Shown here: positions 3,974 through 27,120 of the stretch, piece by piece
Position numbering within the stretch: position 1 is the stretch's first letter
Layout of the letters: every line of letters begins with the position of its first letter
Virus record (IMG/VR): IMGVR_UViG_3300030116_005260
Location: 1-38,902 of that record
Direction: 5' to 3' (one strand)
Source of the DNA: a virus
DNA length: 38,902 bases
Program-made: the position numbers and the translations under genes
The notes under the pieces: generated by a model
The model's database searches: none
Seen by the model: the letters and a program-made list of their open reading frames with translations, nothing else
What the model was told of the DNA's origin: nothing

Positions 3974-3998
3974 TTTATTATATATGTAACAGAATTAA
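3974..3998 (-). promoter_or_regulatory. Candidate phage RNA polymerase promoter, copy 1 (25-bp repeat)
   Basis: On the minus strand this is TTAATTCTGTTACATATAT followed by AATAAA. It matches the site at 18916-18940 at 24 of 25 positions. It begins at the stop codon of the upstream gene and lies 20 bases before the ATG of the 90-residue gene, the start of the late genes. Length, AT-rich 3' half and position fit a T7-type single-subunit polymerase promoter. Unlike the other copy, it is followed by A/C-rich sequence rather than G. Confidence 0.5.
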
Positions 3999-4357
3999 AT
4001 ATCCCTTAATTTGTCAGGTAGCTTACCCTCCTTAACCCACTCATCCGTTTGATATAAACACATAGCATTCCAGATCACGGCACTGAGGTGATCTTCATCT
4101 TCAAATCCTTCCATATAAGCCCAAAGGTGTCGATAAATAGCATCAATGTATCTACTGAAAAACTGACCCTTCTCCCAGTTGCGTGAACCATACTTGTAAG
4201 CTCCATCTTCAAACCTTTTACTGGCTGCCTTCAAAGCAGCGATGGGCAGTTGGTTAGGAAAACCTTTACCTTTCATAGAATCTCTCACCGATCCTGTTTC
4301 AAATTCAGTACGTTCTCCGCTATCAGGAAGTTCGTTTATTTTTTCGTTGGTGTCCAT
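3995..4357 (-). CDS. dATP/dGTP diphosphohydrolase-type (DUF5664-like) protein
   Basis: 120 residues. The core at ~23-105 contains GSVRDSMKGKG, LP..AL..A..RFEDGAYKYGSRNW, YIDAIYRHLWAYMEGFEDEDHLSAVIWNAMCL, which is the pattern of a phage family annotated as dATP/dGTP diphosphohydrolase N-terminal domain (formerly DUF5664). The KYG..NW and EDHL...WN motifs are all present. A role in trimming the dNTP pool during replication is suggested by the name and by its place after the 5' exonuclease gene, which it overlaps by 22 bases. Activity of this stand-alone domain is not shown by sequence. No adenylosuccinate synthetase-like PurZ gene that would point to aminoadenine DNA is present. Confidence 0.7.
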   Translation of the reverse strand: MDTNEKINELPDSGERTEFETGSVRDSMKGKGFPNQLPIAALKAASKRFEDGAYKYGSRNWEKGQFFSRYIDAIYRHLWAYMEGFEDEDHLSAVIWNAMCLYQTDEWVKEGKLPDKLRDI

Positions 4358-5076
4358 AGTCTTATTTCTCCTTCTTTTTCGTTATATTCTTTTGGACTTC
4401 TTAGGATGTAAGACAACCTTGCATTCATCAAAGCATCTTCTTCTGTCTGCCCTTTGGATTCATAAGCATCAACTACTGTCTGCCAAGTAGCTCCATGCTT
4501 ATCTAATAGTTTGTTTGCTGTCACACTTCCAATACCCTTGGCTCCCGAAAAACCATCGACTGTATCTCCAGAAAGGGTTTGTGCAAGGTGATTGTAATCT
4601 GCTTCTTCAGTTGTTGTGTAACTTGTCTCTGCGGTAAGAAAGTTAAACCACTCACAATCAAGAGTGCCGAAGTCCTTGTCTCCACTGACAGCAACATAGT
4701 TGTCGTTGGAGCAACAAAGCATGCCTATCACATCGTCTGCTTCCAGGTTATGTTTGCGTACTCCGTTGTGGTTTTCAAAAGCCCACTGAGTTATTGAAGC
4801 AATACCAAGAGGTTTTCTTTTGTTCTTTCTGTTTGCCTTGTAATCAGGAAAGACGTTGTAACGAAAGTTACGAGCATCCGAAAATACCATGACATAATCG
4901 TCTGACTTTGTTTGGTCAACTGAGTAATCGATCATATCTTGTACAATCACTTTCATGTCTGCCTCAGAACTGTGAAGTGTCCATATATCATCTTCCCATT
5001 TTATCTCCTGCTCCGAAGCAAACCCTGCTCGGTAGACAATCATATCTCCATCTATTGCTGCTATTCTTTTGTTCAT
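4336..5076 (-). CDS. T7 gp6-like 5'-3' exonuclease (FEN family)
   Basis: 246 residues. Metal-binding acidic motifs of the 5' nuclease family are visible: IDGDM near residues 8-12, LEADD at 111-115 and SGDKDF at 131-136, followed by a helix-hairpin-helix-like segment (VDGFSGAKGIGSVTANKLL, ~176-194). In T7 this enzyme removes RNA primers, degrades host DNA with endonuclease I and acts in concatemer processing. It starts 5 bases after the polymerase stop, the same relative place as T7 gene 6. Start at ATG 5076 gives the expected N-terminal aspartates. Confidence 0.88.
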   Translation of the reverse strand: MNKRIAAIDGDMIVYRAGFASEQEIKWEDDIWTLHSSEADMKVIVQDMIDYSVDQTKSDDYVMVFSDARNFRYNVFPDYKANRKNKRKPLGIASITQWAFENHNGVRKHNLEADDVIGMLCCSNDNYVAVSGDKDFGTLDCEWFNFLTAETSYTTTEEADYNHLAQTLSGDTVDGFSGAKGIGSVTANKLLDKHGATWQTVVDAYESKGQTEEDALMNARLSYILRSPKEYNEKEGEIRLWTPTKK

Positions 5077-5081
5077 AATTA

Positions 5082-6929
5082 TTAGTGTGTATCTGCCCAG
5101 TTGTTTCCAATTTTAAAATCACCATCCAAGGGACATTTAATATCTAAAACTTTCCCTGCTTGAATTATTGCAGCTACATAAGTTTGTCCTAAGTCCTGTG
5201 CGTGTTCTTCGAGACAAGAGAACTGAACTTCGTCATGTACATTTGCATGCATTTCATAGGGGTGCTTTGCAAGTTTAGCAAACTCGACCAGTGATTGTTT
5301 CATTATTATGGCTCCACAACTTTGGAGGAGGAAGTTAAGGAGAGAGTGCTTTGATCTCATCTCTATAATCCTTCCATCAATTCCTTTTATGTGTCCGTTA
5401 GTCTCTGCCGACCTTTCAATAGCAGTGAGTAATTTTTTAAAGGCAGGAATCTTTGACATGAATGTGTCTCGAAGTCTCTTTCCTTCCTTCATTCCTTTGC
5501 CAACAGCTTCGCCAAGTCTTTGATTTGAAGCTCCGTATATAAGGCTATATATGAAGGTCTTGGCATCACTTCTATCTATACCAAGTATGTCTGCATTCAC
5601 CTGATGGATGTCACCTTCAAGTATTTCTCTTGCAAACTTACCACTATCAAATTGATAAAGGTACGAAGCAAGACATCTTAATTCGAGAGAAGACGCATCG
5701 GCTCCGCATAGAACTTTTCCCTTTGGTGCTTTGAACATTTCTCTGCACTCCTTGCCATACTCAGCACGAACCGAAGGAATTTGTTGAAGGTTAGGACGAG
5801 ATGCCGAACACCTGCCAGAGATTGTTCCAACAGTACTAACAGTTCCATGTATCCTTCCTTTCTTTGTAACGCATCCAAGCCAAGAGTTTTTTCCTTCAGC
5901 CAACATGCCAAGTCTCTTTTGCACTAACAGATATTCAAGTATCTTCAGTGACTCCTTTGTATTTATCTGTTTTAAAACTGTCTCGTTTATCTCAGGTCTT
6001 TTGCCTTCGTATGCTTTTGGAACCCAACCTTGTTCCATAAGTCTTTCTGCTATCTGATCTCTAGATCCAGGATTGAAGGGAGTAGTCCTGACTTTGTTTC
6101 CCATCTTCTCTGCAAGATCAGATATGTTCTGTTTCAAACCTGCCTTCTTTAGTTGCATCCTTAGTGCGATCTTAGTCTCTCCTGTGTATTCAATCCCCTC
6201 TACTTCTACCTTCCATCCAGTGACACTTCTCATCTTCTCAACCTTTGGAGGAAAGATTTCTTGCATCTCTTTCTCAATCTGCACCCTGCGTACAGAAAGT
6301 TTTTTTGCAAGCTGCTCTGCCTTCTCTACGTCAAAAGGAAAACCATTTAGCTCTTGTGTTCTTATCAGTCTTGCAAAACTGTGTTCTAGTTCCAATGCGT
6401 TTCGTGACACACTGTTTTTGATGAGGTGTTTGTATAAATCAAAAGTAAGTTTTACGTCTTGGGAGCAGTACTGTTGCATCTCAGGATTAAAAGTATCCCA
6501 AGCTCCTTCTTGCTTTGCATACTCACCTTTAAAGTTTCCAAGTCTCCAACCCCAAGCTTCCAGTTTATGTTTACCTACAAGAGCCGAAGGAAAGTTTTCA
6601 CGTTTCTTATCAGTAATAGCGATGTCACGACAAAAAAACTTACTCATGAGCATGGTATCAACGATTACATTCAACTTAACTCCGTAAACCTTTTCAATGC
6701 AGGGAGCATCAAACCCTATAAAGTTGTGTCCACAAACGTATCTGGACTGCTCTAGCATTTTAATACCTTCTTCAATGTTTCCTCTATCTGTATTGAACTC
6801 GTGCATTTCAAGTGTGTCAGTATCAAGTATGGAGATACAATGGAACTTTATGGGACAATCAAGAGTTGTGAAGTTTTCAATGGCGTTTGTTTCTATGTCA
6901 GCTATGACGAATCTATATTTGTATTGCAT
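5082..6929 (-). CDS. Family A DNA polymerase, T7 gp5-like
   Basis: 615 residues with an N-terminal 3'-5' proofreading domain: Exo I DIE at 11-13, Exo II with Asp74 (GHNFIGFDAP), Exo III YCSQD at 154-158. The polymerase domain has motif A with Asp411 (GADASSLELR), the O-helix with Lys457 and Tyr465 (KTFIYSLIYGAS) and motif C HDE at 565-567. All catalytic residues are present, so it should be active on both counts. It is shorter than T7 gp5 (about 700 residues). Start is ATG 6929, 1 base after the methyltransferase stop. Confidence 0.95.
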   Translation of the reverse strand: MQYKYRFVIADIETNAIENFTTLDCPIKFHCISILDTDTLEMHEFNTDRGNIEEGIKMLEQSRYVCGHNFIGFDAPCIEKVYGVKLNVIVDTMLMSKFFCRDIAITDKKRENFPSALVGKHKLEAWGWRLGNFKGEYAKQEGAWDTFNPEMQQYCSQDVKLTFDLYKHLIKNSVSRNALELEHSFARLIRTQELNGFPFDVEKAEQLAKKLSVRRVQIEKEMQEIFPPKVEKMRSVTGWKVEVEGIEYTGETKIALRMQLKKAGLKQNISDLAEKMGNKVRTTPFNPGSRDQIAERLMEQGWVPKAYEGKRPEINETVLKQINTKESLKILEYLLVQKRLGMLAEGKNSWLGCVTKKGRIHGTVSTVGTISGRCSASRPNLQQIPSVRAEYGKECREMFKAPKGKVLCGADASSLELRCLASYLYQFDSGKFAREILEGDIHQVNADILGIDRSDAKTFIYSLIYGASNQRLGEAVGKGMKEGKRLRDTFMSKIPAFKKLLTAIERSAETNGHIKGIDGRIIEMRSKHSLLNFLLQSCGAIIMKQSLVEFAKLAKHPYEMHANVHDEVQFSCLEEHAQDLGQTYVAAIIQAGKVLDIKCPLDGDFKIGNNWADTH

Positions 6930-6930
6930 A

Positions 6931-7788
6931 TTATTTTATTCTTTCTATTAATTTTTTTGAGAGGATTCTAAAGGCTAGTTCTGCTGTTTGTGGGAATACT
7001 CCGTTCCCCAAGAGACGAGTTCTGTCCACCCTGTCGGCAACTCCATAAGCTGCTCCGTCCACGCAGGATTTAATTGATGCAGTTCGTGGTCTTTCCCAAA
7101 GGTATTGAGGTTCGTTGATTGGGGCAGGTACTTTGCGTGGTGTATTTGTCTCCCCAGAAGTGAATTGACTGGTGAGTTCTTGCAAGCTTTTGCCGTCCCA
7201 TCCTTCCAGTCCCTCGCTGTTGGAGTAGCCCATAATAAATACTCTCTTTCTCTGGTGTCCTCCGCCAACTTCGCTCGCTGAGAATATTCCTGCCTCGCAG
7301 ATGTAACCCAACGACTCCAAGCCTCTGAGGACATATCTGAGAACAGGTTCTCCTTCACTTGTTTTTGTTGTGATGATGCCTTCGACATTTTCCAGGAAAA
7401 CAATGGAAGGTCTGCATTCTCTAATTCCATGTTCGATGAAGGGATAGATGTGTCGCTCGTCTCGGTCTGACTTGCGAAGTCCAGTATTGCTAAAGGGCTG
7501 ACAGGGGAAACCTCCACTGAGGATGTGTACCAGTCCTCGAAACTTTCGGTATGGGAAGGTACGAATATCCGACCAAATAGCTGCTTGATCCAGTCTACCT
7601 TTTTCCATCTCTTTAACCAAACACGAAATGGCGTAGGCTTCCCTCTCCACCATAGCGATCTCTCTAATATTTTTGAAGATTCTTCTAAGTCCGAGTCCGA
7701 TACCTTCGTATCCAGAGCAGAGCGAAAGATGGTTAATAGTTTCTTTGGTAGTATCCACATCGTTAAAAGGGGTTTTCATGATCTGCAT
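6931..7788 (-). CDS. C5 cytosine-specific DNA methyltransferase
   Basis: 285 residues with the conserved C5 methyltransferase motifs: I (LSLCSGYEGIGLGLRR, ~21-36), IV with catalytic Cys96 (GGFPCQPFS), VI (ENVEG, 133-137), VIII (QRKRVF, 179-184) and X (GNGVFPQTAELAF, 261-273). The target-recognition part between VIII and X is short (~75 residues) and no specificity can be read from it. No restriction endonuclease is adjacent, so self-protection against host restriction is the likely purpose. It sits between primase-helicase and polymerase, where T7 has no such gene, and its DNA looks richer in G and C than its neighbours, suggesting a later insertion. An in-frame ATG three codons downstream may be the true start. 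A second long frame overlaps it (see findings). Confidence 0.92.
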   Translation of the reverse strand: MQIMKTPFNDVDTTKETINHLSLCSGYEGIGLGLRRIFKNIREIAMVEREAYAISCLVKEMEKGRLDQAAIWSDIRTFPYRKFRGLVHILSGGFPCQPFSNTGLRKSDRDERHIYPFIEHGIRECRPSIVFLENVEGIITTKTSEGEPVLRYVLRGLESLGYICEAGIFSASEVGGGHQRKRVFIMGYSNSEGLEGWDGKSLQELTSQFTSGETNTPRKVPAPINEPQYLWERPRTASIKSCVDGAAYGVADRVDRTRLLGNGVFPQTAELAFRILSKKLIERIK

Positions 7789-9382
7789 CTGACAGTATTC
7801 CTGTTTCCTTGTCGTAGTAAATATGTCCTGCTACTCCTGTCTCTCCGCTAAATCGGTTCTTTAAAACTCTAAGTGTCGTTAAATGTGCCTTGTCTGGGTC
7901 TGGATGTTGCTGACTTCTTTCAAGCCCGCAAACAATATCCGAAAGCTGTGCAATGGAGGCCGATGACCTAAGATGTGCAAGACTTACTGTCGCTCCCTCT
8001 TCGTGTCCCTTGCCCTCTGGTCTTTTTAAATGACTAACAAGTATAAGAGCTATTCCAGTTTCCTCAACTAGCGAACGCAGTCTAGTCATAATAACATCTA
8101 ATGCTCTACGTTCCGATCCTAATTCACTGTCTGTTAGACCACTTACAACTAAGCTTACGTGATCTAACACGACGTACTCTATATCCATTGCTTGAGCCAT
8201 GAAACGTACATCAGAAATAATCTTGTCAGGATCTAGGCTTCCCCAATGGTCATAGAAAAATAATCTCTTAGTTCCCAAGGTTCTTTCAAAACCTTTTCTG
8301 TACTCTTCATCCACTTCAAAATTATCGAGATGCAAAAGCTTCTTTAGTTCTATTCCAAGTATACCTTGTGCTGTCCTTTCTACTGACTCTTCAAGAGCGA
8401 TATATCCAACCTTGCTTTCAGTAGTCGTAAGTATATGGTGAGCTATCTGCCTACAAACTTGACTTTTTCCTATACCACTTCCTGCTGCTAAAGTTACTAT
8501 CTCAGATTTACGAAGACCCCTTGTTAAATTATTAAGACACGAAAAAGGATAGCGTATTGAGTCATTTACTTTGGCTTGTGATATTTTATCAAACAAAGAA
8601 CTGCTATCAATAATACTTACAGGACTCCACTTCTCTGCATCCCAAAAAGATTTAACTGCGTCCTCTCCTCTGCCTTTCATTAGTAACTCATTAGGATCTT
8701 TTCCGTTAAGTCTAGCAACATAAGCTTTACCAGGAGGGAGTATGCTAACTACATCTTCAACTGCTTTTCGTCCTGCTTCGTCTTCGTCAAACATTAAGAC
8801 AACTCTTTCAAAACTATCAAGCCACTTTAGCTGCTTCTTGAATAATGATTTTGCTGATGATGCTCCACCTATACCAACCACAGGGTACTTGTTTTGTTGT
8901 AATTGTGACATTGTAAGTACATCAATTTCGCCCTCACAAACCAGTAGCTTGTTGTTTGCTCCAGTCTTCCAAAGGTGCTGACCAAAAAAAGTATCATGCA
9001 CTTTTCCCTTAACATGAAAATCTTTATCAGCATCTCTAAGCTTTTGTCCTATAAGTCCTCCGTCATTGTTGTAGTAGTTAGCAATGTGAACTGTATTTCC
9101 ATACTCATCTTTTCCAACATGGTATGAGTACTTCTTACAAGTATCTAAATGTATTCCCCTTGGTGCAATAGGTAGAGCTTCTCCTCTTAGGAAACCATTT
9201 GGGTTTAATTTTTCGGTAGTTTTTTTTGTCATGTCTTTATCATAAATTCTTTCGCTGTTTCCAATAGGGTCAAACGTGCCACAGCTAAAACACTTTGAGC
9301 TTCCATCTTCATTGACTGCAAGAGCATCGCTGCTCCCACACTGAGGGCAAGGTAAACCAGTTTCTACAAAGGTTGTGTCCAT
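7763..9382 (-). CDS. T7 gp4-like bifunctional primase-helicase
   Basis: 539 residues from ATG 9382; the frame also continues to a GTG at 9409, but the ATG puts the zinc ribbon at the usual distance. Domains in order: zinc-binding primase domain with Cys12, Cys15, Cys31, Cys34 (CPQCG...CFSCG); TOPRIM primase domain with CEGEID (Glu150) and FDEDEAG (~199-204); DnaB/RecA-type helicase with Walker A AAGSGIGKS at ~299-307 and a Walker B-like VVLDHVSLV. It unwinds DNA at the fork and makes RNA primers for the polymerase encoded downstream. It overlaps the end of endonuclease I by 19 bases and the methyltransferase start by 26 bases. Confidence 0.94.
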   Translation of the reverse strand: MDTTFVETGLPCPQCGSSDALAVNEDGSSKCFSCGTFDPIGNSERIYDKDMTKKTTEKLNPNGFLRGEALPIAPRGIHLDTCKKYSYHVGKDEYGNTVHIANYYNNDGGLIGQKLRDADKDFHVKGKVHDTFFGQHLWKTGANNKLLVCEGEIDVLTMSQLQQNKYPVVGIGGASSAKSLFKKQLKWLDSFERVVLMFDEDEAGRKAVEDVVSILPPGKAYVARLNGKDPNELLMKGRGEDAVKSFWDAEKWSPVSIIDSSSLFDKISQAKVNDSIRYPFSCLNNLTRGLRKSEIVTLAAGSGIGKSQVCRQIAHHILTTTESKVGYIALEESVERTAQGILGIELKKLLHLDNFEVDEEYRKGFERTLGTKRLFFYDHWGSLDPDKIISDVRFMAQAMDIEYVVLDHVSLVVSGLTDSELGSERRALDVIMTRLRSLVEETGIALILVSHLKRPEGKGHEEGATVSLAHLRSSASIAQLSDIVCGLERSQQHPDPDKAHLTTLRVLKNRFSGETGVAGHIYYDKETGILSDADHENPF

Positions 9383-9753
9383 TCCGTTGGTATCTTTCTG
9401 TGACACCACAAAAAACCATAACGATCACACCAATCTGCATAGGTAGTTTTACTGTTTTTTGATAGCGTGTTATATGCATTCTGGAACAAGAATCTAATCG
9501 AATGTTCCGTTTGAGATTTGATGAGCAAATGCTTAGTCCTATCTTCTGGCTTAAAGTATCCCTTGGCTTCAATTATTACTCCGTTAGGAAAAATGAAGTC
9601 AGGAGTATAGACGCAAAGGCGTTTAAATTTAATCTTCATAGTTTCGTATTCAAAGTCTACCCCCTCCCTTCGCAGGGAGAGGGCTGTGTCTCTTTCAAAC
9701 TTAGAACGGAACCTCTGCCGACTGTGCTTGATTATCTTCTGTGCTTTCTTCAT
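9364..9753 (-). CDS. T7 gp3-like endonuclease I (Holliday junction resolvase)
   Basis: 129 residues from ATG 9753. This start is preferred because it aligns with T7 endonuclease I and is preceded by a purine-rich AGAAGAAGAG; the frame is open further upstream. Catalytic residues match T7 in kind and spacing: Glu20 (FERD), Asp52 (YTPDF), Glu62 and Lys64 (EAKG), against Glu20, Asp55, Glu65, Lys67. The following DRTKHLLIKSQ and C-terminal IPTEW are also conserved. It resolves branched replication intermediates and helps break down host DNA. It overlaps the SSB gene end by 53 bases. Confidence 0.9.
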   Translation of the reverse strand: MKKAQKIIKHSRQRFRSKFERDTALSLRREGVDFEYETMKIKFKRLCVYTPDFIFPNGVIIEAKGYFKPEDRTKHLLIKSQTEHSIRFLFQNAYNTLSKNSKTTYADWCDRYGFLWCHRKIPTEWTQPL

Positions 9754-10354: not shown

Positions 10355-12772
10355 TTAGGAAAAGAAATAGTCACTGTCCTTAATGAGCGAAATGTCAGCT
10401 TCACCATAGTTTGGAGGATCAGGAAAATCTAAATCAGGATTCTGCTTTTTTATTTGATTGAGCCAGTCAAGTAGTAAGTCAGGAGAAAACATTTTTACTG
10501 CTTGCTCACGAATTACTTTAGCTAACTTATCGCTGTGCTTACAGTGCGTTCCAAAGCTGTCGTGTATCATTGCGAAATCATAGATACCTTCTTTGTTCGC
10601 AGCTACAGTGACATCGTGTAGAAGACTAGCATCCATTGAGTGGACTACATTAGCTGCTACACCAAGCATCATTGCCTTTGGTGAAATCTTATCTGAATCC
10701 TCAGTGAAACGAACATGCACTGCTTCACCTGTAATCCAAGTCTTTACATTGTTCTCTTTTAATTTTTTATAATCTTGTTTTACTACGAAGCCAGAAGGAG
10801 TCCTCCATTCAAGGTGTCTTTCGGCTGCTGTAACAATGTTGCATACTTCTTGGAACCAATGCATACACTGCTTTGGTAAATCTAAAATCTCCTCGATTGC
10901 TTCCCAGACTTTAACAGCGAGGTAGTGAACAGCTTTGTAGTATTCAGATAAATCAAAAGGTGAGGGACAACTGTCTGCATGGATTTTATCCTCAAACCAG
11001 TCTAATATATACTGTCGGTTTGAATACATAGTAAGTGAGTAGGAGTAGCACATCACACTCTTTTTTGTTGTCTTCCTGGATATTCCGTAGTCAAGCCAAG
11101 TTTGTGCAAAAGGATGATTGCTTGCTGCGTCCTCACGTAAATAACTCTCAACTCGCAGTCTAACAACATCATAAATATCGGCAGGTTTGTTTGTTGGGAT
11201 AACATTAGTTGCAACACATCCATAATCACATCGAGTTAGTATTGATAAAATTTGTAAACCATTGTTAGTTGCATCCATCGGGCAGGGAAGTTTGGTCTTT
11301 AGTTTTCCTTCACGTAAAAACTCTGCCCACTCAAAACAAAAAGCAAGAAACTGAAAACAACCATTTCCATCGGCATCCATCCATTCAGTATTTATTGTTG
11401 GATCGTTTGAGATGCGTATAATCATCTCAGCATTATCATAAGCCCATTGCTCACGTTCATCTAAAGTGACTTTGTCATATCCCCAACAGTTTGCTCCATG
11501 AATTGCAAGCCATCTTGCTTCCTTCTTGTTCCTAACTCGCTCGCTTCTTTCAAACTGCATCAGACCTCTTGTAAGATCAGTACCTTGCACGTTCAGAAAG
11601 GAAGGGATTGCATAAATCCTTCCACGAAAGCAAGTATTAACAGGAGTCCAAAATCTTTCTCCCTTAAACTTTCTAGCTAGATGTATAATGGTTCCGCAAA
11701 GTATTCTCTTAGATCTAGTTGATCTGTTTCTTTTGTGAACCCCTGCTGCCATTTGGTTCCACTGCTTTTTTATCTCCTTGTTCTCATGTGCATCCTCTGG
11801 AAAAGGAGGTCTTTCTTCATCCTCTTGACTAACAATAGTTGAACCGATCGGCACATTATTTCGCCAAGCCCACTCTACAACATCCAAAACCCTTTGATTT
11901 ATTTCCCAGGGTGTTCTTTGAATTAAATTAGCTGCCTCCATTGGAACCTTAAACTCCCTGCTGTCTATCTCTCTTAAAAACTTTTTGTCAGGTGTCTTTA
12001 TAAATGGAAGCTTTGGAAGAGATGTACCCTCAGTACGATAACCACCTTCCCAAATATTTTTCCAATCATCAGGAGGTTCAGTCATGGGCATCCAAAATGG
12101 TTCTAACAATGCTCTGTAATTATTAAAGTTTTCAATCCAGTCCAATGTAATCTTTGTAGCTGTCACATATCTTGTTGCTCGTTTTCTTTGCTTCTCTCGA
12201 ATGTAAACATACTCGATAAGATCTGTAGAAACTCGCAGGAGTTCAATTAAAACTGTTCCACACGAAATCCTATCTCTCTTTGCCCAAGGCTCAAAGTTTT
12301 CTATACCTCTTTTTTCTTCCTCATGCTTCATCGAAAGCCTTATATGTCGAAGTGTGGAAGTTTCTCCGCTTCTCGTCTTTGCTCCCTTTATGATTCCTTC
12401 CCCCCTTTTATTTGTGCGAACAAGGAATGTACATCTTATTTCATTCTCAATAGCTTTACCTACAGCGTAGCTCATGGAAGCCATTGTCTTCTTGTATGGA
12501 ATGCCGTTGAGAACTGTTTTTAATGTTAGAAATGCAATCTTCTTTGAATCATACTCTTTAAGATCAACTAGCCATCTTGTTGGTCTTCCCTTCTTTGGTT
12601 TTAAAAGTTCCATCACCCTTCTGTTAAATTCTGGAAGGAGCTTTCGCATTAATCGTTGACCTGCAGAACTTCGAGAATTTTGATCGTACTTTCTTGCACT
12701 TTCATTTTGTGCAGAAAAGCGACCAATACCTATCTCGGTCATCTCGTTGTTCAAATCAGATTGTTCTAACAT
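10355..12772 (-). CDS. T7-type single-subunit DNA-dependent RNA polymerase
   Basis: 805 residues, close to the family length (883 in T7). Catalytic motifs are visible: motif A with Asp500 (CPMDATNNGLQ), motif B around residues 565-585 (GISRKTTKKSVMCYSYS) and motif C MIHDSFGTH with Asp738. Motif A differs from T7 (DGSCSGIQH) by having DATNNGLQI, as in divergent marine phage enzymes. The protein should transcribe the DNA-metabolism and late genes from its own promoters. Its start overlaps the integrase stop by 7 bases, so the two are cotranscribed and probably translationally coupled. Confidence 0.95.
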   Translation of the reverse strand: MLEQSDLNNEMTEIGIGRFSAQNESARKYDQNSRSSAGQRLMRKLLPEFNRRVMELLKPKKGRPTRWLVDLKEYDSKKIAFLTLKTVLNGIPYKKTMASMSYAVGKAIENEIRCTFLVRTNKRGEGIIKGAKTRSGETSTLRHIRLSMKHEEEKRGIENFEPWAKRDRISCGTVLIELLRVSTDLIEYVYIREKQRKRATRYVTATKITLDWIENFNNYRALLEPFWMPMTEPPDDWKNIWEGGYRTEGTSLPKLPFIKTPDKKFLREIDSREFKVPMEAANLIQRTPWEINQRVLDVVEWAWRNNVPIGSTIVSQEDEERPPFPEDAHENKEIKKQWNQMAAGVHKRNRSTRSKRILCGTIIHLARKFKGERFWTPVNTCFRGRIYAIPSFLNVQGTDLTRGLMQFERSERVRNKKEARWLAIHGANCWGYDKVTLDEREQWAYDNAEMIIRISNDPTINTEWMDADGNGCFQFLAFCFEWAEFLREGKLKTKLPCPMDATNNGLQILSILTRCDYGCVATNVIPTNKPADIYDVVRLRVESYLREDAASNHPFAQTWLDYGISRKTTKKSVMCYSYSLTMYSNRQYILDWFEDKIHADSCPSPFDLSEYYKAVHYLAVKVWEAIEEILDLPKQCMHWFQEVCNIVTAAERHLEWRTPSGFVVKQDYKKLKENNVKTWITGEAVHVRFTEDSDKISPKAMMLGVAANVVHSMDASLLHDVTVAANKEGIYDFAMIHDSFGTHCKHSDKLAKVIREQAVKMFSPDLLLDWLNQIKKQNPDLDFPDPPNYGEADISLIKDSDYFFS

Positions 12773-13776
12773 AATTCTAGTACCTTTAACCCACTCAATA
12801 AACTGTGATCGTTAAGATGTGCATACCTAAGAGTCTGTTCAATTCTTTTATGTCCAAGCCACTTCTTTGTTAATGCAATGTTACCTGTTCTTTGAACAAG
12901 TCTTGAACCACATGTGTGTCTGCAAAGATAAAAAATAAAATTCCTGTCTTTTTCTTTTCCTAGTGCCTTCTTCACCTTGTCCCAAACTGTTCTGATTCGA
13001 TCCTTTGTCCAATGCTCCCACATCTTTCCCTTTTTATAGTGATTTCGATAAGCAATGTAAGCTCGTCTTGTAAGAGGAATCTTACGAGGTTCTGTGTTTT
13101 TTGTTTCACCTGCTTTTAGTTCCACAACGTAACCCAGGTAATCATCATGTCTTACTTGGTCAGCACTTATTCTTCTGGCTTCACTTGGTCGCATGCCTGT
13201 GTCGATCTGCCACATAAAAAAGTCTGCAAAATAATGCTCGCCTATCTCCTCAAGGTACTCTAATATATCTGCCTCTTCCTCATCGCTGAAATAAACACTC
13301 CTCTCGTTGTTAACCTTCTCAAGCTTTGGCATAAGAACTTTTTTTGGAATCCAATTTCTCGAAAAAGCAAAACCAAATGCTCTTGAAATCGTCGCAAACT
13401 TTAATCGTATTGTAGCAGGGGAGTTACCTAGCTCTTTGCAATGAAGATAGAAGTTATCCAGGTCATTGATGTCTATCGTATGAGCTAATCGGTTTGGCCC
13501 AAAAAACCTTTTAATCATAGAAATGTGTTGGAGTGCTGTTGGCTCGTTTGCCTTACCTTGCCAAACATTTAAAACTACCTTGCCAAACATTTGCGAAATC
13601 GTCATAGGCTCTAATGTTTTATCATCCCTATCAATTCGTTCTCCTCTGTGGAGCTTTGCTCTTACCTTTGTTTCATATTCTTTTGCCTCAATTTCAGAAT
13701 TAAATTGTTTCCGATAGCGTGTATTGTTGACCATAAAATCCGCTAAAAATTTATTGCCGTTTTTTCTGGTAGTCAT
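12766..13776 (-). CDS. int: Tyrosine-family phage integrase
   Basis: 336 residues. An N-terminal arm-binding-like domain (~1-60), a SAM-like core-binding domain (~60-150) and the C-terminal catalytic domain are apparent. Catalytic residues: Arg196 (TGMRPSEA), Arg286 and His287 (YLCRHTCGSRL), His309 (LGHK) and nucleophile Tyr318 (TLRYAHL). The usual first His of the H-x-x-R box is Tyr283. It indicates the phage can, or its ancestor could, integrate. Integrase directly ahead of RNA polymerase is known from marine T7-like phages. A GAAAGGA sequence lies 11-17 bases before the ATG. No excisionase or repressor was recognised and no attP could be fixed. Confidence 0.93.
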   Translation of the reverse strand: MTTRKNGNKFLADFMVNNTRYRKQFNSEIEAKEYETKVRAKLHRGERIDRDDKTLEPMTISQMFGKVVLNVWQGKANEPTALQHISMIKRFFGPNRLAHTIDINDLDNFYLHCKELGNSPATIRLKFATISRAFGFAFSRNWIPKKVLMPKLEKVNNERSVYFSDEEEADILEYLEEIGEHYFADFFMWQIDTGMRPSEARRISADQVRHDDYLGYVVELKAGETKNTEPRKIPLTRRAYIAYRNHYKKGKMWEHWTKDRIRTVWDKVKKALGKEKDRNFIFYLCRHTCGSRLVQRTGNIALTKKWLGHKRIEQTLRYAHLNDHSLLSGLKVLELC

Positions 13777-13832
13777 TGTTTTGGTAGTCCTTTCTAATTT
13801 ATTGGTAGTAAGTTTTTAATAAAAATATATTT

Positions 13833-13863
13833 ATAATAAATATTACAATAGTAACCTTGTCAA
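13833..13863 (-). promoter_or_regulatory. Candidate sigma70 promoter for integrase-RNA polymerase
   Basis: Minus strand: perfect -35 TTGACA (13863-13858) and TATTAT (13838-13833), spacer 19, in an AT-rich stretch ending about 57 bases before the integrase ATG. With a 17-base spacer the -10 would read TTTATT. It lies just after the terminator hairpin, so it would restart transcription for integrase and RNA polymerase. Confidence 0.5.
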
Positions 13864-13871
13864 ATTGACAA
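13857..13871. promoter_or_regulatory. Palindromic operator-like site over the integrase -35
   Basis: TTGTCAAATTGACAA is a 7-bp perfect inverted repeat around one central base. Its half includes the TTGACA of the candidate promoter, so a bound protein would block it. The regulator is unknown. Confidence 0.45.
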
Positions 13872-13946
13872 AAAAAGAAGGATCAAAAAGGGAAGAGCAG
13901 GAAAACTACCAAATAAACCTGCTGCTGAAAATCCCAATTTGATCCT
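13870..13946 (-). terminator. Intrinsic terminator at the end of the early block
   Basis: Arms at 13880-13893 and 13932-13945 pair over 14 bp with two internal mismatches (GGATCAAA and GGGA parts pair perfectly), plus one flanking A-T pair. Inside, AGCAGG (13896-13901) and CCTGCT (13918-13923) form a second stem. On the minus strand the structure is followed by TTCTTTTTTT, the classical form of a Rho-independent terminator. The large loop is unusual, and the structure could also be regulatory or part of an attachment site. Confidence 0.6.
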
Positions 13947-14015
13947 CTCTATTGCTTAATGTGAATTAGTTTTTATTTTAGTCAACTAATATAATAATAT
14001 TATAATCCAGGGTAA

Positions 14016-14351
14016 TTAAAGATCTAAATCCTCAATCACCTTATTTACTACTGGTCTATAATAGTGACTAGTTTCCTCCCCCTCCAGAAGCTCTTCAAAT
14101 TGCCTAGTGCCATTATAACAAGTTTGGCTCGATTGATTAAAAGCTTCGCCAATACTTCGTAAAGGCCAATCGAAATGAGTAGATAAAACATACATCGCTA
14201 ACCTTCGCCATTGCACTGTATGATGATCACCTTCGCTTCTTATCCTTTCTGGGGAGAATCCAGAATGTCTAGATATTGAATTTAGTACATTCTCGACTAC
14301 CTCATTGTAGTTATTTAATTTTGGTTTTTTTCTTTTTAGTTTAGTTTTCAT
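14016..14351 (-). CDS. Stand-alone DnaA domain IV-like DNA-binding protein
   Basis: 111 residues. After a basic N-terminus (MKTKLKRKKPKLN) the region ~17-100 follows the layout of the C-terminal DNA-binding domain of the DnaA initiator: a first helix (VVENVLNSISRHSGFSPERI), then WRRLAMYVLSTHFDWPLRSIGEAFNQS with the helix-turn-helix, and a final helix containing FEELLE. In DnaA the signature after the turn is GGRDHTTV, which reads double-stranded DnaA boxes; here it is NQSSQTCYN, so specificity is probably changed. No ATPase domain is present. It could be a replication or transcription regulator, or mimic or compete with host DnaA (inference). It is the last gene before the terminator that precedes integrase. 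Confidence 0.65.
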   Translation of the reverse strand: MKTKLKRKKPKLNNYNEVVENVLNSISRHSGFSPERIRSEGDHHTVQWRRLAMYVLSTHFDWPLRSIGEAFNQSSQTCYNGTRQFEELLEGEETSHYYRPVVNKVIEDLDL

Positions 14352-14352
14352 A

Positions 14353-14583
14353 TTAATGATAATTTTTTAAGTAGTTTTCTATAGGCTCAAGAAACATAGT
14401 TCCACTAGTGCATTCTCCTTTTGGAAGATTACCAATCTCGTTATAAATCCCTATAACGTGATATCCCATATTTTCCGCCAATAATGTTAAATCAAATTTA
14501 ATTTCAGAAGGATCATCTACTGCCCAATCCGCATCAAAGTAACTTGTTTCTGTTGGTTTTATGTTTTTAATAACTAACGACAT
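14353..14583 (-). CDS. Hypothetical early protein, 76 aa
   Basis: Acidic protein (MSLVIKNIKPTETSYFDADW) with a single Cys in GECTSGTMFLEPI. No motif recognised. Its start overlaps the end of the upstream gene by 17 bases and its stop is 1 base before the DnaA-like gene, so it belongs to the same early operon. Confidence 0.6.
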   Translation of the reverse strand: MSLVIKNIKPTETSYFDADWAVDDPSEIKFDLTLLAENMGYHVIGIYNEIGNLPKGECTSGTMFLEPIENYLKNYH

Positions 14584-14791
14584 TCTTCCAATCCTCCTTT
14601 ACTTCAAAGCTAAATCCGTTTTTCTGATCCCAAGTGTATGATTTAATAACTCCCCTTTCGCATAGATCTTTAATAAGGCTAGCCATTACAGCATCGCTAA
14701 CATCATAATCCAGGGAATGTTCAATGTCTCTTAGCCAATCCTCAAAATGATCGGTTAAATCCTGCATTTCAATATAATCTAGATTACTCAT
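14567..14791 (-). CDS. Hypothetical early protein, 74 aa
   Basis: Acidic, mainly helical sequence (DLTDHFEDWLRDIEHSLDYDVSDAV) followed by a short beta-like C-terminus (GFSFEVKEDWKNVVSY). It overlaps both neighbours by 8 and 17 bases. Function unknown; small acidic early proteins in T7-like phages are sometimes inhibitors of host enzymes, but nothing here proves that. Confidence 0.6.
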   Translation of the reverse strand: MSNLDYIEMQDLTDHFEDWLRDIEHSLDYDVSDAVMASLIKDLCERGVIKSYTWDQKNGFSFEVKEDWKNVVSY

Positions 14792-14990
14792 TACTCTCCT
14801 CCTTCTCCTCTCTCTTTGCCTTTTCTACTTCACTCTCTAATCCTAAGATTTCTCTAAGATAGTGCATTGCTGTTTTAGCGTCATCAATCTCATCCTGATG
14901 CTTTTTGATTGCTGCTCTTTGGTTTTCAATCCTAAATTCAAATTCATGAATAACCTTCCAGATATTATCTAATTCGTTTTCTATGTTCAT
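14784..14990 (-). CDS. Coiled-coil early protein, 68 aa
   Basis: Almost entirely helical with heptad-like spacing from ~residue 5 to 65 (ELDNIWKVIHEFEFRIENQ, then AMHYLREILGLESEVEKAK) and an acidic tail EEKEESNE. It probably oligomerises. It starts 2 bases after the stop of the preceding 58-residue gene. No family recognised. Confidence 0.6.
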   Translation of the reverse strand: MNIENELDNIWKVIHEFEFRIENQRAAIKKHQDEIDDAKTAMHYLREILGLESEVEKAKREEKEESNE

Positions 14991-14992
14991 GG

Positions 14993-15169
14993 TTATTTCT
15001 TTGGTAAATTATGGTAAGTAATCCGTCCATTTTCGTTTAGTTCTAAAACCTTGCGAAACTTAACCTCGTAATCATCGCTAGGATAAGATCCAAAAAAAGA
15101 AACCTCTGGAGGCCCATCACCTTTTATTTTTTTATAATAAGGAATTTCTTTGATTGTTTTTGTAATCAT
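14993..15169 (-). CDS. Hypothetical early protein, 58 aa
   Basis: ATG at 15169 overlaps the stop of the upstream gene (TGATG arrangement) and the stop at 14993 is 2 bases before the next ATG, so the operon would have a gap without it. The product begins MITKTIKEIPYYKKIKGDG and ends GRITYHNLPKK, with a basic, beta-like composition. Function unknown. The spacing is the main evidence that it is real. Confidence 0.6.
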   Translation of the reverse strand: MITKTIKEIPYYKKIKGDGPPEVSFFGSYPSDDYEVKFRKVLELNENGRITYHNLPKK

Positions 15170-15384
15170 CACTTTAATAAGTTTTTAAGGTCTTGAGGTT
15201 TTCCGAATCCATAAAAATTTAGTTCCCAGTTACAGCTTTCATCTTTTGCTGTTGAATTATCAATAGAATCTAATCGCTTTTTAAGATCAGTTTTAAATAT
15301 TGATTTATAAGCAAGTAATAAGGAATCCAGGGAATCCCCATACTGCCATTCGTTTAGTAGTTTTTTAGCTTCTTGTTTTTTCAT
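15169..15384 (-). CDS. Hypothetical early protein, 71 aa
   Basis: Lysine- and leucine-rich, mostly helical (MKKQEAKKLLNEWQYGDSLDSLLLAYKS), one Cys in ESCNWELNFYGFG. The ATG follows an ACTACTAATAAACT leader, part of the repeated early-gene leader motif. Function unknown. Confidence 0.6.
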   Translation of the reverse strand: MKKQEAKKLLNEWQYGDSLDSLLLAYKSIFKTDLKKRLDSIDNSTAKDESCNWELNFYGFGKPQDLKNLLK

Positions 15385-15413
15385 AGTTTATTAGTAGTTT
15401 TAGTTAATACTTT

Positions 15414-15599
15414 TTAGTTTACTTCTTTTACATACTCCCATGTAGTTTTTCCTCCAAACCAAATATATTTTTGGTATGGCATACATTTCGGACAATTCCC
15501 TACTCTATCATATGAATAGGTTCTGCCTTTATGATTAGTCTTTTGAATTTGTTCATATCCACACCTTTGGCATTTATAAATTCGAGCTTTTAATTTCAT
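15414..15599 (-). CDS. Zinc-ribbon early protein, 61 aa
   Basis: Two CxxC knuckles, Cys10/Cys13 (CQRCG) and Cys36/Cys39 (CPKC), 22 residues apart, form a rubredoxin-like zinc ribbon. The rest is basic and aromatic (YQKYIWFGGKTTWEYVKEV). Such small proteins bind zinc and often contact nucleic acids or proteins; the partner is unknown. The start follows an ACTATTAAAACAAA leader with no Shine-Dalgarno sequence. Confidence 0.65.
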   Translation of the reverse strand: MKLKARIYKCQRCGYEQIQKTNHKGRTYSYDRVGNCPKCMPYQKYIWFGGKTTWEYVKEVN

Positions 15600-15605
15600 T
15601 TTGTT

Positions 15606-15719
15606 TTAATAGTTTTTAGTTAAGTTAAGCTTTTTAAAGGCTTCTAGAATGCGATAGCCAAGGTAATCACCAAGAAAAACTTTGAATATCACACTCTCGA
15701 AGGCTTTAAAGGTCTTCAA
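15606..15719 (-). CDS. Possible 37-aa early ORF (TTG start)
   Basis: Fills the otherwise empty gap between the 70- and 61-residue genes. The product KTFKAFESVIFKVFLGDYLG then YRILEAFKKLNLTKNY is protein-like (alternating helix pattern), overlaps the end of the upstream gene by 14 bases, and stops 6 bases before the next ATG. There is no ATG, only TTG just after an in-frame stop, so it may not be translated. Confidence 0.3.
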   Translation of the reverse strand: MKTFKAFESVIFKVFLGDYLGYRILEAFKKLNLTKNY

Positions 15720-15918
15720 TATGGACTACTTCGCACCCATCAAACATTTCTGGAAATTTACAAATTTTTTTCCAAGCTCCGTTTAAAGAATAAGTATAAG
15801 CATCATCCACCCAACTTCTCTTTTCTTTTGTCCAGTCTCTCTCATCACCATAACAGGTTCCTCTATAATAAAGACCAAACGGATTCACTATATAATAATT
15901 AAATGCTTCTTTTTTCAT
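15706..15918 (-). CDS. Hypothetical early protein, 70 aa
   Basis: Aromatic-rich protein (NYYIVNPFGLYYRGTCYGDERDW) with three Cys, ending FDGCEVVHIEDL. No known motif. Preceded by the leader ACTACTAAAACAAAATG with no Shine-Dalgarno. Its start overlaps the end of the upstream gene by 20 bases. Confidence 0.58.
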   Translation of the reverse strand: MKKEAFNYYIVNPFGLYYRGTCYGDERDWTKEKRSWVDDAYTYSLNGAWKKICKFPEMFDGCEVVHIEDL

Positions 15919-16246
15919 TTTGTTTTAGTAGTTTTGGGTTTAATAGCTCAAGTTCCTCAAGATTTTCAAAAGGCTCTAAATCATGAACTGATCTTGTGCC
16001 TTTTCCATCAGTAACGACTAGCGAAAAATCCCTAGGAAACTTTGATTTTGATAGTTTATGAGCATTAAAGGTCTTTTTGTCTTCAGTACCTTTGATTGCT
16101 ACAAAAGATTTACAAGCTCCATGATCAAAAGCAGTTGGACATATTTCTTGAATCAGTAAAGATTTTACTAGCTCAGATTTTAGCTTTTCTTGAGTAGCTT
16201 GTAAATCATCAAGTTTATTGAGTAGGTTTTTAGTTTTTGTTAACAT
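15899..16246 (-). CDS. Hypothetical early protein, 115 aa
   Basis: N-terminal ~30 residues form a coiled coil (MLTKTKNLLNKLDDLQATQEK region); the middle has two Cys (ICPTAFDHGACKSF) and a mixed alpha/beta composition; the C-terminus is Leu/Glu-rich. No family recognised. It follows the 93-residue gene after 12 bases. Confidence 0.58.
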   Translation of the reverse strand: MLTKTKNLLNKLDDLQATQEKLKSELVKSLLIQEICPTAFDHGACKSFVAIKGTEDKKTFNAHKLSKSKFPRDFSLVVTDGKGTRSVHDLEPFENLEELELLNPKLLKQNEKRSI

Positions 16247-16258
16247 AGTAGTTATTGA

Positions 16259-16540
16259 TTAGCTTATTTTAATCCAGGAATTAACATCTACTGGTTCATT
16301 GTTTCGCATTGCCTGACCTTTTACAGTGTGAAAACCTGCATTTACTATTCCGTTAGTTCGTTCCTTTGTAGTTGGAGTATTCCAACCTGCTAAAGTTGCG
16401 TAAATGTTACCATCCTCCTCTCTTTTAATAATTGCGTTACCATGAAGCCATACAGTGGTCCCATCTGTTGCAGTGTTACCGATTGTTTTAGATTCGCCTG
16501 ATTCAAAGGCTTCTTTAATAAGTAATGTTATTTTTCTCAT
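16259..16540 (-). CDS. Conserved small phage protein with LHGNAI and AGW-TTKERTNG motifs
   Basis: 93 residues. TVWLHGNAIIKREEDGNIYAT, LAGWNTPTTKERTNGI and the C-terminal WIKI match a small-protein family seen in many unrelated phages, in which these motifs are the conserved core; its function is unknown to me. It is the first gene after the bidirectional hairpin terminator and a candidate promoter at 16685-16712. The leader has two AACTAACCAAA copies and no Shine-Dalgarno. Confidence 0.68.
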   Translation of the reverse strand: MRKITLLIKEAFESGESKTIGNTATDGTTVWLHGNAIIKREEDGNIYATLAGWNTPTTKERTNGIVNAGFHTVKGQAMRNNEPVDVNSWIKIS

Positions 16541-16684
16541 TATTTGTTTTTTTGGTTAGTTTTTATTAGTTTGGTTAGTTTTCTTTTAATAAGAATAATT
16601 TAATAAAGCATTAAAAAAATTTTAATCAATAAAAAAGATTAATTAATATTCCAGGAATTCTTGGGAATGCTACAAAACCCTATA

Positions 16685-16712
16685 ATAATAGAAAGCTCGG
16701 TAATATAATCAA
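16685..16712 (-). promoter_or_regulatory. Candidate sigma70 promoter within the early block
   Basis: TTGATT (16712-16707), 16-base spacer, TATTAT (16690-16685) on the minus strand, between the terminator at 16759-16800 and the gene starting at 16540, leaving an AT-rich leader of ~140 bases. Both hexamers are one or two bases off consensus. In DNA this AT-rich, chance matches are possible. Confidence 0.35.
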
Positions 16713-16758
16713 AAACCAGGGAAATGTTAAAAAGTTACGTTTTTAGGGATTTTTAAAG

Positions 16759-16800
16759 AAAAAAAAACCCTTAGAAATTAATTCCTAAGAGTTTTTTTTT
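16759..16800. terminator. Bidirectional hairpin terminator
   Basis: CTTAGAAATT/AATTCCTAAG forms a near-perfect palindrome flanked by an A-run (16759-16767) on one side and a T-run (16792-16800) on the other, so either strand ends in stem plus U-tract. It lies 15 bases past the stop of the 137-residue gene at 16816 and would end or attenuate the first early transcript. Confidence 0.7.
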
Positions 16801-16815
16801 AGCTTGTTTGTTTGT

Positions 16816-17229
16816 CTATTTCACTAAGTCATAATCATTAATATATTGTTTTAAACCTTCATAATTTACTTCTATAGATATTCCCTCAAATCGAGTATAA
16901 ACAAGATCCCCATTGATAACGTGGTTATCTGGTTCGCTTAATTCCTCAAGAGGGTTTTCAAGTTGAGTCTCAATCTCTCCAGTTACTATATTAATGTCTG
17001 ATTCAGAGCTTCCAAAAATGTTTAACTCCCAACAGTCATTTATATTGTCTTGAATAATAAAATTTCTATCTTTTTCAAGAAGAGGCATTAAAACAGTTTG
17101 AAGCTCTTCGCTGCAATTAGATTTTAGAAACTCATCAGATAGCGATAATTCGCAACCAATTGCTTCTTTGAGAGATTTAAGCTCCCATTTTCTAATCATA
17201 TCGGCTGTAATGTAATTGCTTGGAATCAT
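16816..17229 (-). CDS. Hypothetical acidic early protein, 137 aa
   Basis: Strongly acidic (EETQLENPLEELSEPDNH-like segment around 85-102) with two Cys at ~26 and ~39, plus Cys66 in NDCWELNIFGSSE. The WELNIFG phrase resembles CNWELNFYGFG in the 71-residue gene at 15169-15384, hinting at a shared small domain. The start codon overlaps the stop of the upstream gene by one base. Not recognised; acidic early proteins can be DNA mimics, but that is speculation. Confidence 0.6.
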   Translation of the reverse strand: MIPSNYITADMIRKWELKSLKEAIGCELSLSDEFLKSNCSEELQTVLMPLLEKDRNFIIQDNINDCWELNIFGSSESDINIVTGEIETQLENPLEELSEPDNHVINGDLVYTRFEGISIEVNYEGLKQYINDYDLVK

Positions 17230-17555
17230 TAAACTAACTCCCCTCTAATAATGGTTATCGTTTTAGTTTCAGAATCAAAATAGCAAGTATACTTTTCAGC
17301 ATCGCCAAAAAAGTCACTAACCCATTTTCCCCCCATATCAATTATAGGTCTATCAATGGTGCCTGCTATCTTGTTAGATTTGATGTTTTCAGGGAATGAA
17401 GTAGCAAACGATAATAGAAGCTCATCATCATCTATCCTTTCTTTTTTAAATCGCATACCATTAATTAATTTATGCGAGTTTAATATATTCCCCTCAATCC
17501 ATATTCTTGCGTTGCCTCTATTAAAGGCTTTTTTGTATATTTTGGTAGTTTTCAT
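17229..17555 (-). CDS. Small early protein with ARIWIEG N-terminal motif, 108 aa
   Basis: N-terminus KIYKKAFNRGNARIWIEG, a central RPIIDMGGKWVSDFFGDAE and C-terminal beta strand TKTITIIRGELV. I recall the RGN.R.WIEG ... RPIID pattern from small phage and plasmid proteins with an AbrB/SymE-like beta fold, but I cannot name the family. A DNA- or RNA-binding function would be inference. Confidence 0.58.
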   Translation of the reverse strand: MKTTKIYKKAFNRGNARIWIEGNILNSHKLINGMRFKKERIDDDELLLSFATSFPENIKSNKIAGTIDRPIIDMGGKWVSDFFGDAEKYTCYFDSETKTITIIRGELV

Positions 17556-17618
17556 TATATGTTATTTATTTATTTGTTATTATTATTTTAAGCTCAGTTA
17601 TTAATAAACTGAAAAGAA

Positions 17619-17645
17619 CTAACCAAGTAAAAATTACTTGATTAG
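17619..17645 (-). terminator. Hairpin between the first two early genes
   Basis: 12-base arms CTAACCAAGTAA and TTACTTGATTAG pair with one G-U type mismatch around a 3-base loop, followed on the minus strand by AGTTCTTTTC. The stem is strong but the U-run is interrupted, so it may attenuate or be an RNA-processing site rather than a full terminator. Confidence 0.4.
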
Positions 17646-17669
17646 CTCAATTTCAATCAATTAATATAA

Positions 17670-18083
17670 TTAATCCTCTCCTCTCTTGATAGCTTCCCTA
17701 GTTGCATTAATCATAATATGACTAGGAACTTCTTCCACCGATAAACCAAGAGCATCAAGAGCATCTTGCTCATCATAAGTGATACAATATTCATGATTAA
17801 GTAATTCATAGACTAAAGCATCCATTAAAAATTTATCATTTTTAAAGGCATTCTCTCTCTCTTCTTTTTGTCTATCTGTTAATTCCTTTAAATCGTAAAC
17901 CCTATCTTTAAAGATAAAAGCTCCTCCACCATAAGGTATCATTGTCTCGTGAGCAGTCTTTTCGCTTATCTTTAGTTTTTTAATACCTTCAAGATACTGG
18001 TCATTATTAAAGGCAAAGAACATTCCTTCAAAATCGTGTAATTCTTTAGAATGTCTGTTACTTAGTTTTTTATATGTCTCCAT
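17670..18083 (-). CDS. Conserved phage protein of unknown function, first large early gene
   Basis: 137 residues. FEGMFFAFNNDQYLEGIKKLK, GGGAFIFKDRVYDL and DALVYELLNHEYCITYDEQDALDALGLS match a protein family I have seen in several phage groups (conserved EGIFFAF, LNNHEYCITYD and DALEALGL motifs); its function is not known to me. Two TATAAT-like -10 elements lie 28-51 bases upstream, and the ATG follows ACTAACCAAAAAAA without Shine-Dalgarno. Confidence 0.65.
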   Translation of the reverse strand: METYKKLSNRHSKELHDFEGMFFAFNNDQYLEGIKKLKISEKTAHETMIPYGGGAFIFKDRVYDLKELTDRQKEERENAFKNDKFLMDALVYELLNHEYCITYDEQDALDALGLSVEEVPSHIMINATREAIKRGED

Positions 18084-18110
18084 TTTTTTTGGTTAGTTTT
18101 TTATTTATTC

Positions 18111-18140
18111 ATTATAATCAGGTTTTTCATTATAACCTGA
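18111..18140 (-). promoter_or_regulatory. Tandem TATAAT elements in a hairpin ahead of the early genes
   Basis: Minus strand has TATAAT at 18134-18129 and again at 18116-18111, parts of an imperfect ~16-bp direct repeat (GATTATAATGAA-like). TCAGGTT and AACCTGA (18118-18124, 18134-18140) also pair as a 7-bp stem. No good -35 was found at 16-18 bases, so these are candidate host-type promoters only. Confidence 0.35.
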
Positions 18141-18182
18141 CTAATTATCTCCACCATTATGTGATGAAGATAACCAGTCAAT

Positions 18183-18314
18183 TTATATTGAATGAATAAC
18201 TTTAATTAATAAGCTTATTAAGTAAGTTAGAAAACATAGGGAATAGATGATTAAACTATTCAGTACTATGTATATTATTTTATCGGTTTTGGTAGTAGTA
18301 GTTTTTTTATTCAT
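18183..18314 (-). CDS. Possible small membrane protein, 43 aa
   Basis: ATG 18314 to TAA 18183. The product has a polar basic N-terminus (MNKKTTTTKTDK) and then a continuous hydrophobic stretch of about 28 residues (IIYIVLNSLIIYSLCFLTYL and on), the layout of a single-span membrane peptide. It would be the first gene of the early region. There is no convincing Shine-Dalgarno, although most early genes here lack one. AT-rich DNA can produce hydrophobic frames by chance. Confidence 0.35.
   Translation of the reverse strand: MNKKTTTTKTDKIIYIVLNSLIIYSLCFLTYLISLLIKVIHSI
18206..18221. repeat. 16-bp perfect palindrome
   Basis: TTAATAAGCTTATTAA reads the same on both strands. It lies inside the possible 43-codon frame, ahead of the TATAAT elements. 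It may be a protein-binding site. Confidence 0.4.
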
Positions 18315-18432
18315 ATATATATGTAATGGATTACCTTGTTAATTTAAATAAACTTGATAAAAAAGCAAAAATTATTTGATTAAATTTTATTCATTTTAAA
18401 AAAACGTCCATTAATAAACAAACATAGATACA

Positions 18433-18465
18433 TGTTCACTTGAACACCTGGTGTTCGTTTGAACA
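18433..18465. promoter_or_regulatory. 33-bp operator-like inverted repeat
   Basis: Left arm TGTTCACTTGAACACC and right arm GGTGTTCGTTTGAACA are reverse complements at 13 of 16 positions around one central base. Each arm is itself a partial palindrome (GTTC...GAAC), so there are four GTTC/GAAC half-sites. This is the form of a dimer-of-dimers repressor or replication-protein site. Confidence 0.55.
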
Positions 18466-18482
18466 GTACCTTATAAACGTCA

Positions 18483-18503
18483 CACAAGATCCAACATCTT
18501 GTG
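18483..18503. repeat. 8-bp-arm inverted repeat
   Basis: CACAAGAT and ATCTTGTG pair perfectly around the 5-base loop CCAAC. There is no U-run after it on either strand, so a protein site or structured-DNA element is more likely than a terminator. Confidence 0.4.
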
Positions 18504-18704
18504 ATTTATTAAAGAAATGCCTTTTATAATTGCATTAATCCCCCCATCAGTGACAAAAAGAAGACAATTAGCATGCAAAATTTGAAAAGGGGAGGCCGAT
18601 CTGGGGGAATTTTTTGATTTCGTATATACGTATACCCTTTCACATTTTTTTACCAAAAATAAAAGGTATTAGTTTGGAGAAGGTAGTCTGGAGATAGCTA
18701 ACTT

Positions 18705-18890
18705 AAAACTTACTTAAACCCCCACATTTAACATGTTGTTAAGTAACTTTTCTACCTAATACTAAGTATACTTAAAGTTATACTCTATAACTATTTTAAA
18801 ATAACTTACTTCTAACTTCTTTATTACTTATATTAAATTAGGTTTACTTATCTTACAATCATAATTACTGATTTCTATATAAGTAATGGT
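18705..18890. repeat. Cluster of TTACTTA heptamers in both orientations
   Basis: TTACTTA at 18710, 18824 and 18844, its complement TAAGTAA at 18740 and 18880, the 12-bp palindrome TAAGTATACTTA at 18763-18774 and a near match at about 18804. T7 has arrays of short repeats beside its terminal repeats; this cluster sits at the equivalent place. It could also be an initiation site. Confidence 0.4.
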
Positions 18891-18915
18891 TTTTTGACCC
18901 CCCTATAATCCCCCC

Positions 18916-18940
18916 TTTATCATATATGTAACAGAATTAA
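18916..18940 (-). promoter_or_regulatory. Candidate phage RNA polymerase promoter, copy 2 (25-bp repeat)
   Basis: Minus strand TTAATTCTGTTACATATAT then GATAAA, followed directly by GGGGGG, fitting initiation at G. It differs from the site at 3974-3998 at one position and also overlaps the stop codon of the gene before it. Its place after the last late gene is that of the phi-OR promoter of T7. Confidence 0.5.
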
Positions 18941-27117: not shown

Positions 27118-27120
27118 TAT

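Follow-up and report, generated by a model that had tools for sequence, protein, structure and literature searches.

A paired promoter-like element at the two boundaries of the late operon of a T7-like phage and its concerted change among relatives

Which sequences serve as promoters for the single-subunit RNA polymerase of an uncultured marine T7-like phage, and where do they stand in its genome? The window analysed here, a virus record taken at its full length of 38,902 bases, has a T7-like gene content encoded nearly entirely on the minus strand, with replication-side genes (integrase, single-subunit RNA polymerase, ssDNA-binding protein, endonuclease, primase-helicase, methyltransferase, DNA polymerase and exonuclease) and structural-side genes (connector, scaffold, capsid, tail and internal virion proteins, terminase and endolysin), and with a fibre-like gene that is interrupted by the contig ends. 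Because relatives in which this stretch is uninterrupted (G023, G026, G027, G022 and G010) have exonuclease, small genes and connector in this order on one strand, the window is read as a T7-like map whose opening falls within the late region. In this view, and taken as a circle, the late operon begins at about 3998, passes through base 1 to 38902 and finishes at 18937. Large late ORFs of 1467, 790 and at least 894 amino acids (22714-29493 and 1-2682) are without any PHROG match, and neither tRNA genes in the window nor relatives among cellular genomes were found.

At the two boundaries of this operon a near-identical element of about 20 bp is present, oriented with transcription (Table 1). 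The shared 25-mer, TTAATTCTGTTACATATAT(A/G)ATAAA, is identical at 24 of 25 bases between the two copies, here called LATE and END, with the A/G as the single difference, and the exact cores of 19 bp lie at 3980-3998 and 18922-18940 on the minus strand. A sequence-only reading of this DNA had pointed to such a 25-bp pair, and it is confirmed at both coordinates. These are the only matches to the element in the window at up to 3 mismatches (0.06 expected; 0 of 100 shuffles gave two), and the window contains no third copy of its 23-mer at up to 5 mismatches. Between the 600-bp regions around LATE and END, the best common 20-mer agrees at 19 of 20 bases, compared to a shuffle maximum of 17. As also described in that reading, both copies begin at the stop codon of the preceding gene, the TAA of the ORF being overlapped at an equal position inside the element. 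This overlap looks like compact packing rather than function because it is lost in G013, where a 0.5-kb insertion separates the preceding gene from LATE and the element remains with the late genes, and in G003, where END sits about 23 bases past the last aligned codon, and because in types E and G (types A to I denote the variants of the element, type A being that of the window) END is directly behind the endolysin gene. LATE is apart from the upstream gene in G024 and G025 as well. In L098, the last middle gene is parted from the late promoter by an extra stretch with a gene-like frame (1995-2530), apparently with the AAGGGATAT stretch duplicated.

Table 1. Positions of the predicted promoters, their parts and neighbouring genes in the window, and of the candidate promoters of cultured pelagiphages
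Feature	Position	Strand	Remark
LATE promoter (predicted)	3974..3998	-	opens the late operon; pairs exactly with END
LATE parts	TAAT 3997-3994; block CTGTTACA 3992-3985; TATA 3984-3981 (-4 to -1)	-	predicted start 3980 or 3979
Last gene before LATE, phrog_18716-like	3995..4357	-	TAA stop overlaps LATE element
First late gene	3682..3954	-	about 25 bases past predicted LATE start
END promoter (predicted)	18916..18940	-	after the last late gene; phi-OR-like by position
END parts	block CTGTTACA 18934-18927; TATA 18926-18923	-	predicted start 18922 or 18921
Last gene of the late region	18937..19254	-	TAA stop overlaps END element
Two G6 runs	18910-18915 and 18898-18903 (18898..18915)	-	fall in the first 25 bases predicted for the END transcript
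Single-subunit T7-class RNA polymerase	10355..12772	-	presumed reader of LATE and END; phrog_414 E 1.5e-217; T7 RNA polymerase E 1.1e-91
AGTAAAGTTNCACTNTTAGA in L250 (HTVC105P)	7552, 17699, 31721, 42248
AGTAAAGTTNCACTNTTAGA in L254 (HTVC121P)	31, 7737, 17784, 31953
AGTAAAGTTNCACTNTTAGA in L253 (HTVC019P)	334, 7341, 17068, 31030

The promoter reading implied that close relatives carry the element at the same places, and they do: among relatives with a polymerase 95-97% identical, the sequence is retained both at LATE (L003, L083, L084 and L085) and at END (L086 and L087/G014). Synteny also bears out that one copy precedes the late genes and that the other closes the late region. In more distant relatives, whose RNA polymerase is 57-78% identical, other sequences stand at these places, yet LATE and END still match each other within a genome. 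G003 (polymerase 78%) has AATTTACGACTGTATATAATAAA at both places instead of the window sequence, and a blind comparison of LATE and END regions, applied to further genomes, found that the two places also match each other in G020, G021, G022, G024, G025 and G027, there with still different sequences. Eight of the nine two-site genomes are concordant (the window, G003 and these six; permutation p = 2.5e-5), with best common 20-mers of 19-20/20 compared to a shuffle maximum of 17, while genes flanking the switched elements remain 80-95% identical. All eight concordant contigs have exactly two copies at up to 4 mismatches, G020 being partial and weaker promoters being able to escape this count. 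As the types are lineages, the independent switches are fewer than the concordant genomes, and we count at least five. Types F and I match across contigs, with the late copy in G026 and G004 and the end copy in G032 and G030, respectively. The ninth two-site genome, G023, has a type F late and a type H end element. It is 91-100% identical to G026 over 3.6-16.8 kb and mostly 79-98% identical to G024/G025 from 19 kb on, and this change of identity partner marks it as a recombinant or a chimeric assembly. G023 (L231-L233) is a mosaic contig with a G026-like replication half and a G024/G025-like structural half, switching between 16.8 and 19 kb, and each half has its own promoter type. In the compared regions of the more distant groups G007-G012, no paired elements were found above chance.

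Anchored on TATA, which keeps a fixed distance in all types, each element consists of an A/T-rich stretch, a variable block of 8 bp and the TATA itself, followed according to type by TRATAA, TGAAGAA, GGAGGAC, AGTAA or CGAAG. Judged by sequence, this is the layout of T7-class promoters, in which T7 RNA polymerase uses its specificity loop to read the block preceding TATA. Type G stands in the exact T7 register (TAAT, 9 bp, TATA, GGAGGAC), and the start base of type A is uncertain by one. The occurrence of TACGACT in type B, considered as a T7 block, is shifted two bases in the TATA-anchored register and was treated as coincidence. The polymerase of the window is intact by its catalytic residues (D537, K631, Y639 and D812 in T7 numbering are retained) and has a shorter specificity loop, which varies from type to type. 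Similarity of the block correlates with similarity of the loop (Mantel p = 0.002), but this covariation is not significant beyond the overall divergence, or phylogeny, of the polymerase (partial Mantel p = 0.18), and types C and G have a common block and different loops.

Next to their likeness, the two elements differ in what follows them. Types A, B, C, E, F and H, with the variants of H, show G-runs within about 30 bases after END, types G and I having no long G-runs there, and none follows any LATE copy. Because G-runs follow END and not LATE in most types, and with END positioned after the last late gene as is a phi-OR-type end promoter, the sequences suggest an added phi-OR-like origin role of END in replication. 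Beyond END, about 0.8 kb of the window (18090-18915) is without a clear gene. Parts of it are conserved as blocks among relatives, and it includes an inverted repeat of 8 bp at 18483-18503; this stretch is a candidate genome end, origin or attachment region. A bolder proposal, which we hold to be rather unlikely, is that in this clade polymerase specificity and both promoters switched together at least five times, insulating the transcription of close relatives, and that the G-run transcript of END stays hybridised to the DNA and primes replication. Such a transcript can be likened to the case of CSB II, a G-rich block that serves together with the T7-like polymerase of mitochondria.

A shorter core, TACATATA, has five matches in the window (1.4 expected), which besides LATE and END lie at 18318, 34857 and 34940 on the minus strand. 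The sequence-only reading had counted these copies, one phi-OL-like at about 18317-18325 and two in the capsid leader, in the promoter family of the phage polymerase. Their occurrence stands, and their promoter reading does not, as all three are without the CTGT half of the specific block and are not conserved as promoters. The copy at 18318 was rejected for having no counterpart in G014 or G003, and the capsid-leader pair because relatives using another element do not retain it in a promoter role. These leader copies are part of a conserved leader made up of a hairpin and a ribosome-binding region, and G003, which uses a different element, still has GTACATATAAATT ahead of its capsid gene. The leader (34853-34962) is conserved across relatives of all promoter types, its GUUGUU/AACAAC hairpin having a z of -2.07 and 16 consensus pairs with little covariation.

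For LATE and END themselves the proposed family is well supported. The comparisons establish how the two elements pair, their strand and copy number, their synteny and their concerted change, and synteny and concerted change, together with promoters mapped at both corresponding places in phage LUZ100, strongly support the promoter reading: LATE and END are very probably the promoters used by the T7-class single-subunit RNA polymerase that the phage itself encodes. The host polymerase would presumably transcribe the early region, the integrase and the phage polymerase gene; a scan of the early region for host-type promoters gave nothing above shuffles and is uninformative. The phage polymerase would bind the element by reading its A/T-rich part (about -17 to -13) and its variable block of 8 bp (-12 to -5), melt TATA at -4 to -1 and start at the next one or two bases. 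Transcription from LATE would cover the structural, packaging and lysis genes, about 24 kb in all, and that from END would yield a G-rich RNA heading for the genome end, where it may prime replication, since the position and first bases of END resemble those of T7 phi-OR. On circular or concatemeric DNA, END transcription may also enter the early and polymerase genes. Counting against the promoter reading are the differing elements of the mosaic G023, the covariation of loop and block that does not go beyond polymerase divergence, and the common block of types C and G despite different loops. With two promoters in all, moreover, the middle genes have none to themselves.

Alternatively, LATE and END could be host sigma-70 promoters driving late and terminal transcription from a TATAAT -10 box, a motif present in the LATE copy of type A and in types B and C. 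The END copy of type A reads TATGAT, types E, F and G are without a -10 match at these places, and no -35 box stands at the right distance (the best partner is GGGATA). A conserved host signal is moreover not expected to change in both copies between close relatives, and we consider this explanation very unlikely. Still less probable is that the pair mark the limits of the late region as a recombination site, or that a regulator of the phage binds there. A DNA-binding protein that co-evolves with its sites could likewise account for direct repeats that occur in pairs and change jointly, but most types are without dyad symmetry (type I has one), and the fixed TATA distance in all types, the T7 register of type G and the LUZ100 promoters at both places argue for promoters instead. 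Least probable of all, in our view, is a signal for transcript 3' ends, pausing or RNA processing, such as the T7 concatemer-junction pause site. In its favour, both elements overlap stop codons in the window and TTCTGTTA is one base off the class II pause core ATCTGTT. The overlap, however, is lost in the END of G003 and in the LATE of G013, G024 and G025, CTGTT is missing from types B to I at both places, and no RNA structure is seen at the elements, whose folding does not surpass that of shuffled sequences (z +1.96 and +0.66).

Read as promoters, LATE and END make predicted promoters available for a group of related marine T7-like phages that are uncultured. The approximately nine variants of the recognition block form a candidate set of orthogonal polymerase-promoter pairs and a natural series of switched pairs, making testable both the joint specificity change of a polymerase with two unlinked promoters and the use of an end promoter as origin in a two-promoter phage. 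The comparison of the two regions also indicates promoters in cultured pelagiphages, in which AGTAAAGTTNCACTNTTAGA occurs as four same-strand copies, ahead of the ssDNA-binding protein, the late genes and the tail fibre and at the genome end, as candidate promoters of their polymerases (Table 1). For HTVC022P, a phage of the HTVC019P type, RNA-seq from infection is available (PMC12753301). In Rhizobium phage Pasto (L251), TTACCCCGCACACTAGGA is found four times with 0-3 mismatches (11883, 21999, 25074 and 42181), late-leader and genome-end places included. A literature search, with most subscription journals outside its scope, returned no paper describing these elements.

Among the closest known systems is LUZ100, which is temperate and T7-like with an integrase beside the polymerase. 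Two of its phage promoters, phi6 and phi8, which were reported on the basis of ONT-cappable-seq, are situated at the equivalents of LATE and END, in the exonuclease-connector gap and between the large terminase and the right terminal repeat, and share the strand of the genes, an A/T-rich start and purine-rich first bases (phi8 starts GGAGGAAAGGGG), whereas the promoter sequence CAATTACCACACAGT is unrelated and LUZ100 has eight phage promoters compared to two in the window phage (PMC10134795). The KP34 strong promoter TAATGTTACAGGAGTA has TAAT and GTTACA in common with type A, with another spacing and no TATA block, and the likeness may be due to chance (PMC6834552). The T7 promoter shares the layout of TAAT, block, TATA and purines, but its consensus TAATACGACTCACTATA is not matched in the type A element, which equals the T7 17-mer at 10/17 bases and differs in the specific block, and T7 has many promoters. 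Its phi-OR, which starts GGGAGAGGAGGG, stands at the end of the late region as END does. The two-promoter plan has a precedent in the marine T7-like phage Syn5, which has only two promoters, of the unrelated sequence ATTGGGCACCCGTAA, and a polymerase processive beyond 30,000 nt (PMC3950665). Compared to these systems, LATE and END are a new specificity of a known promoter type.
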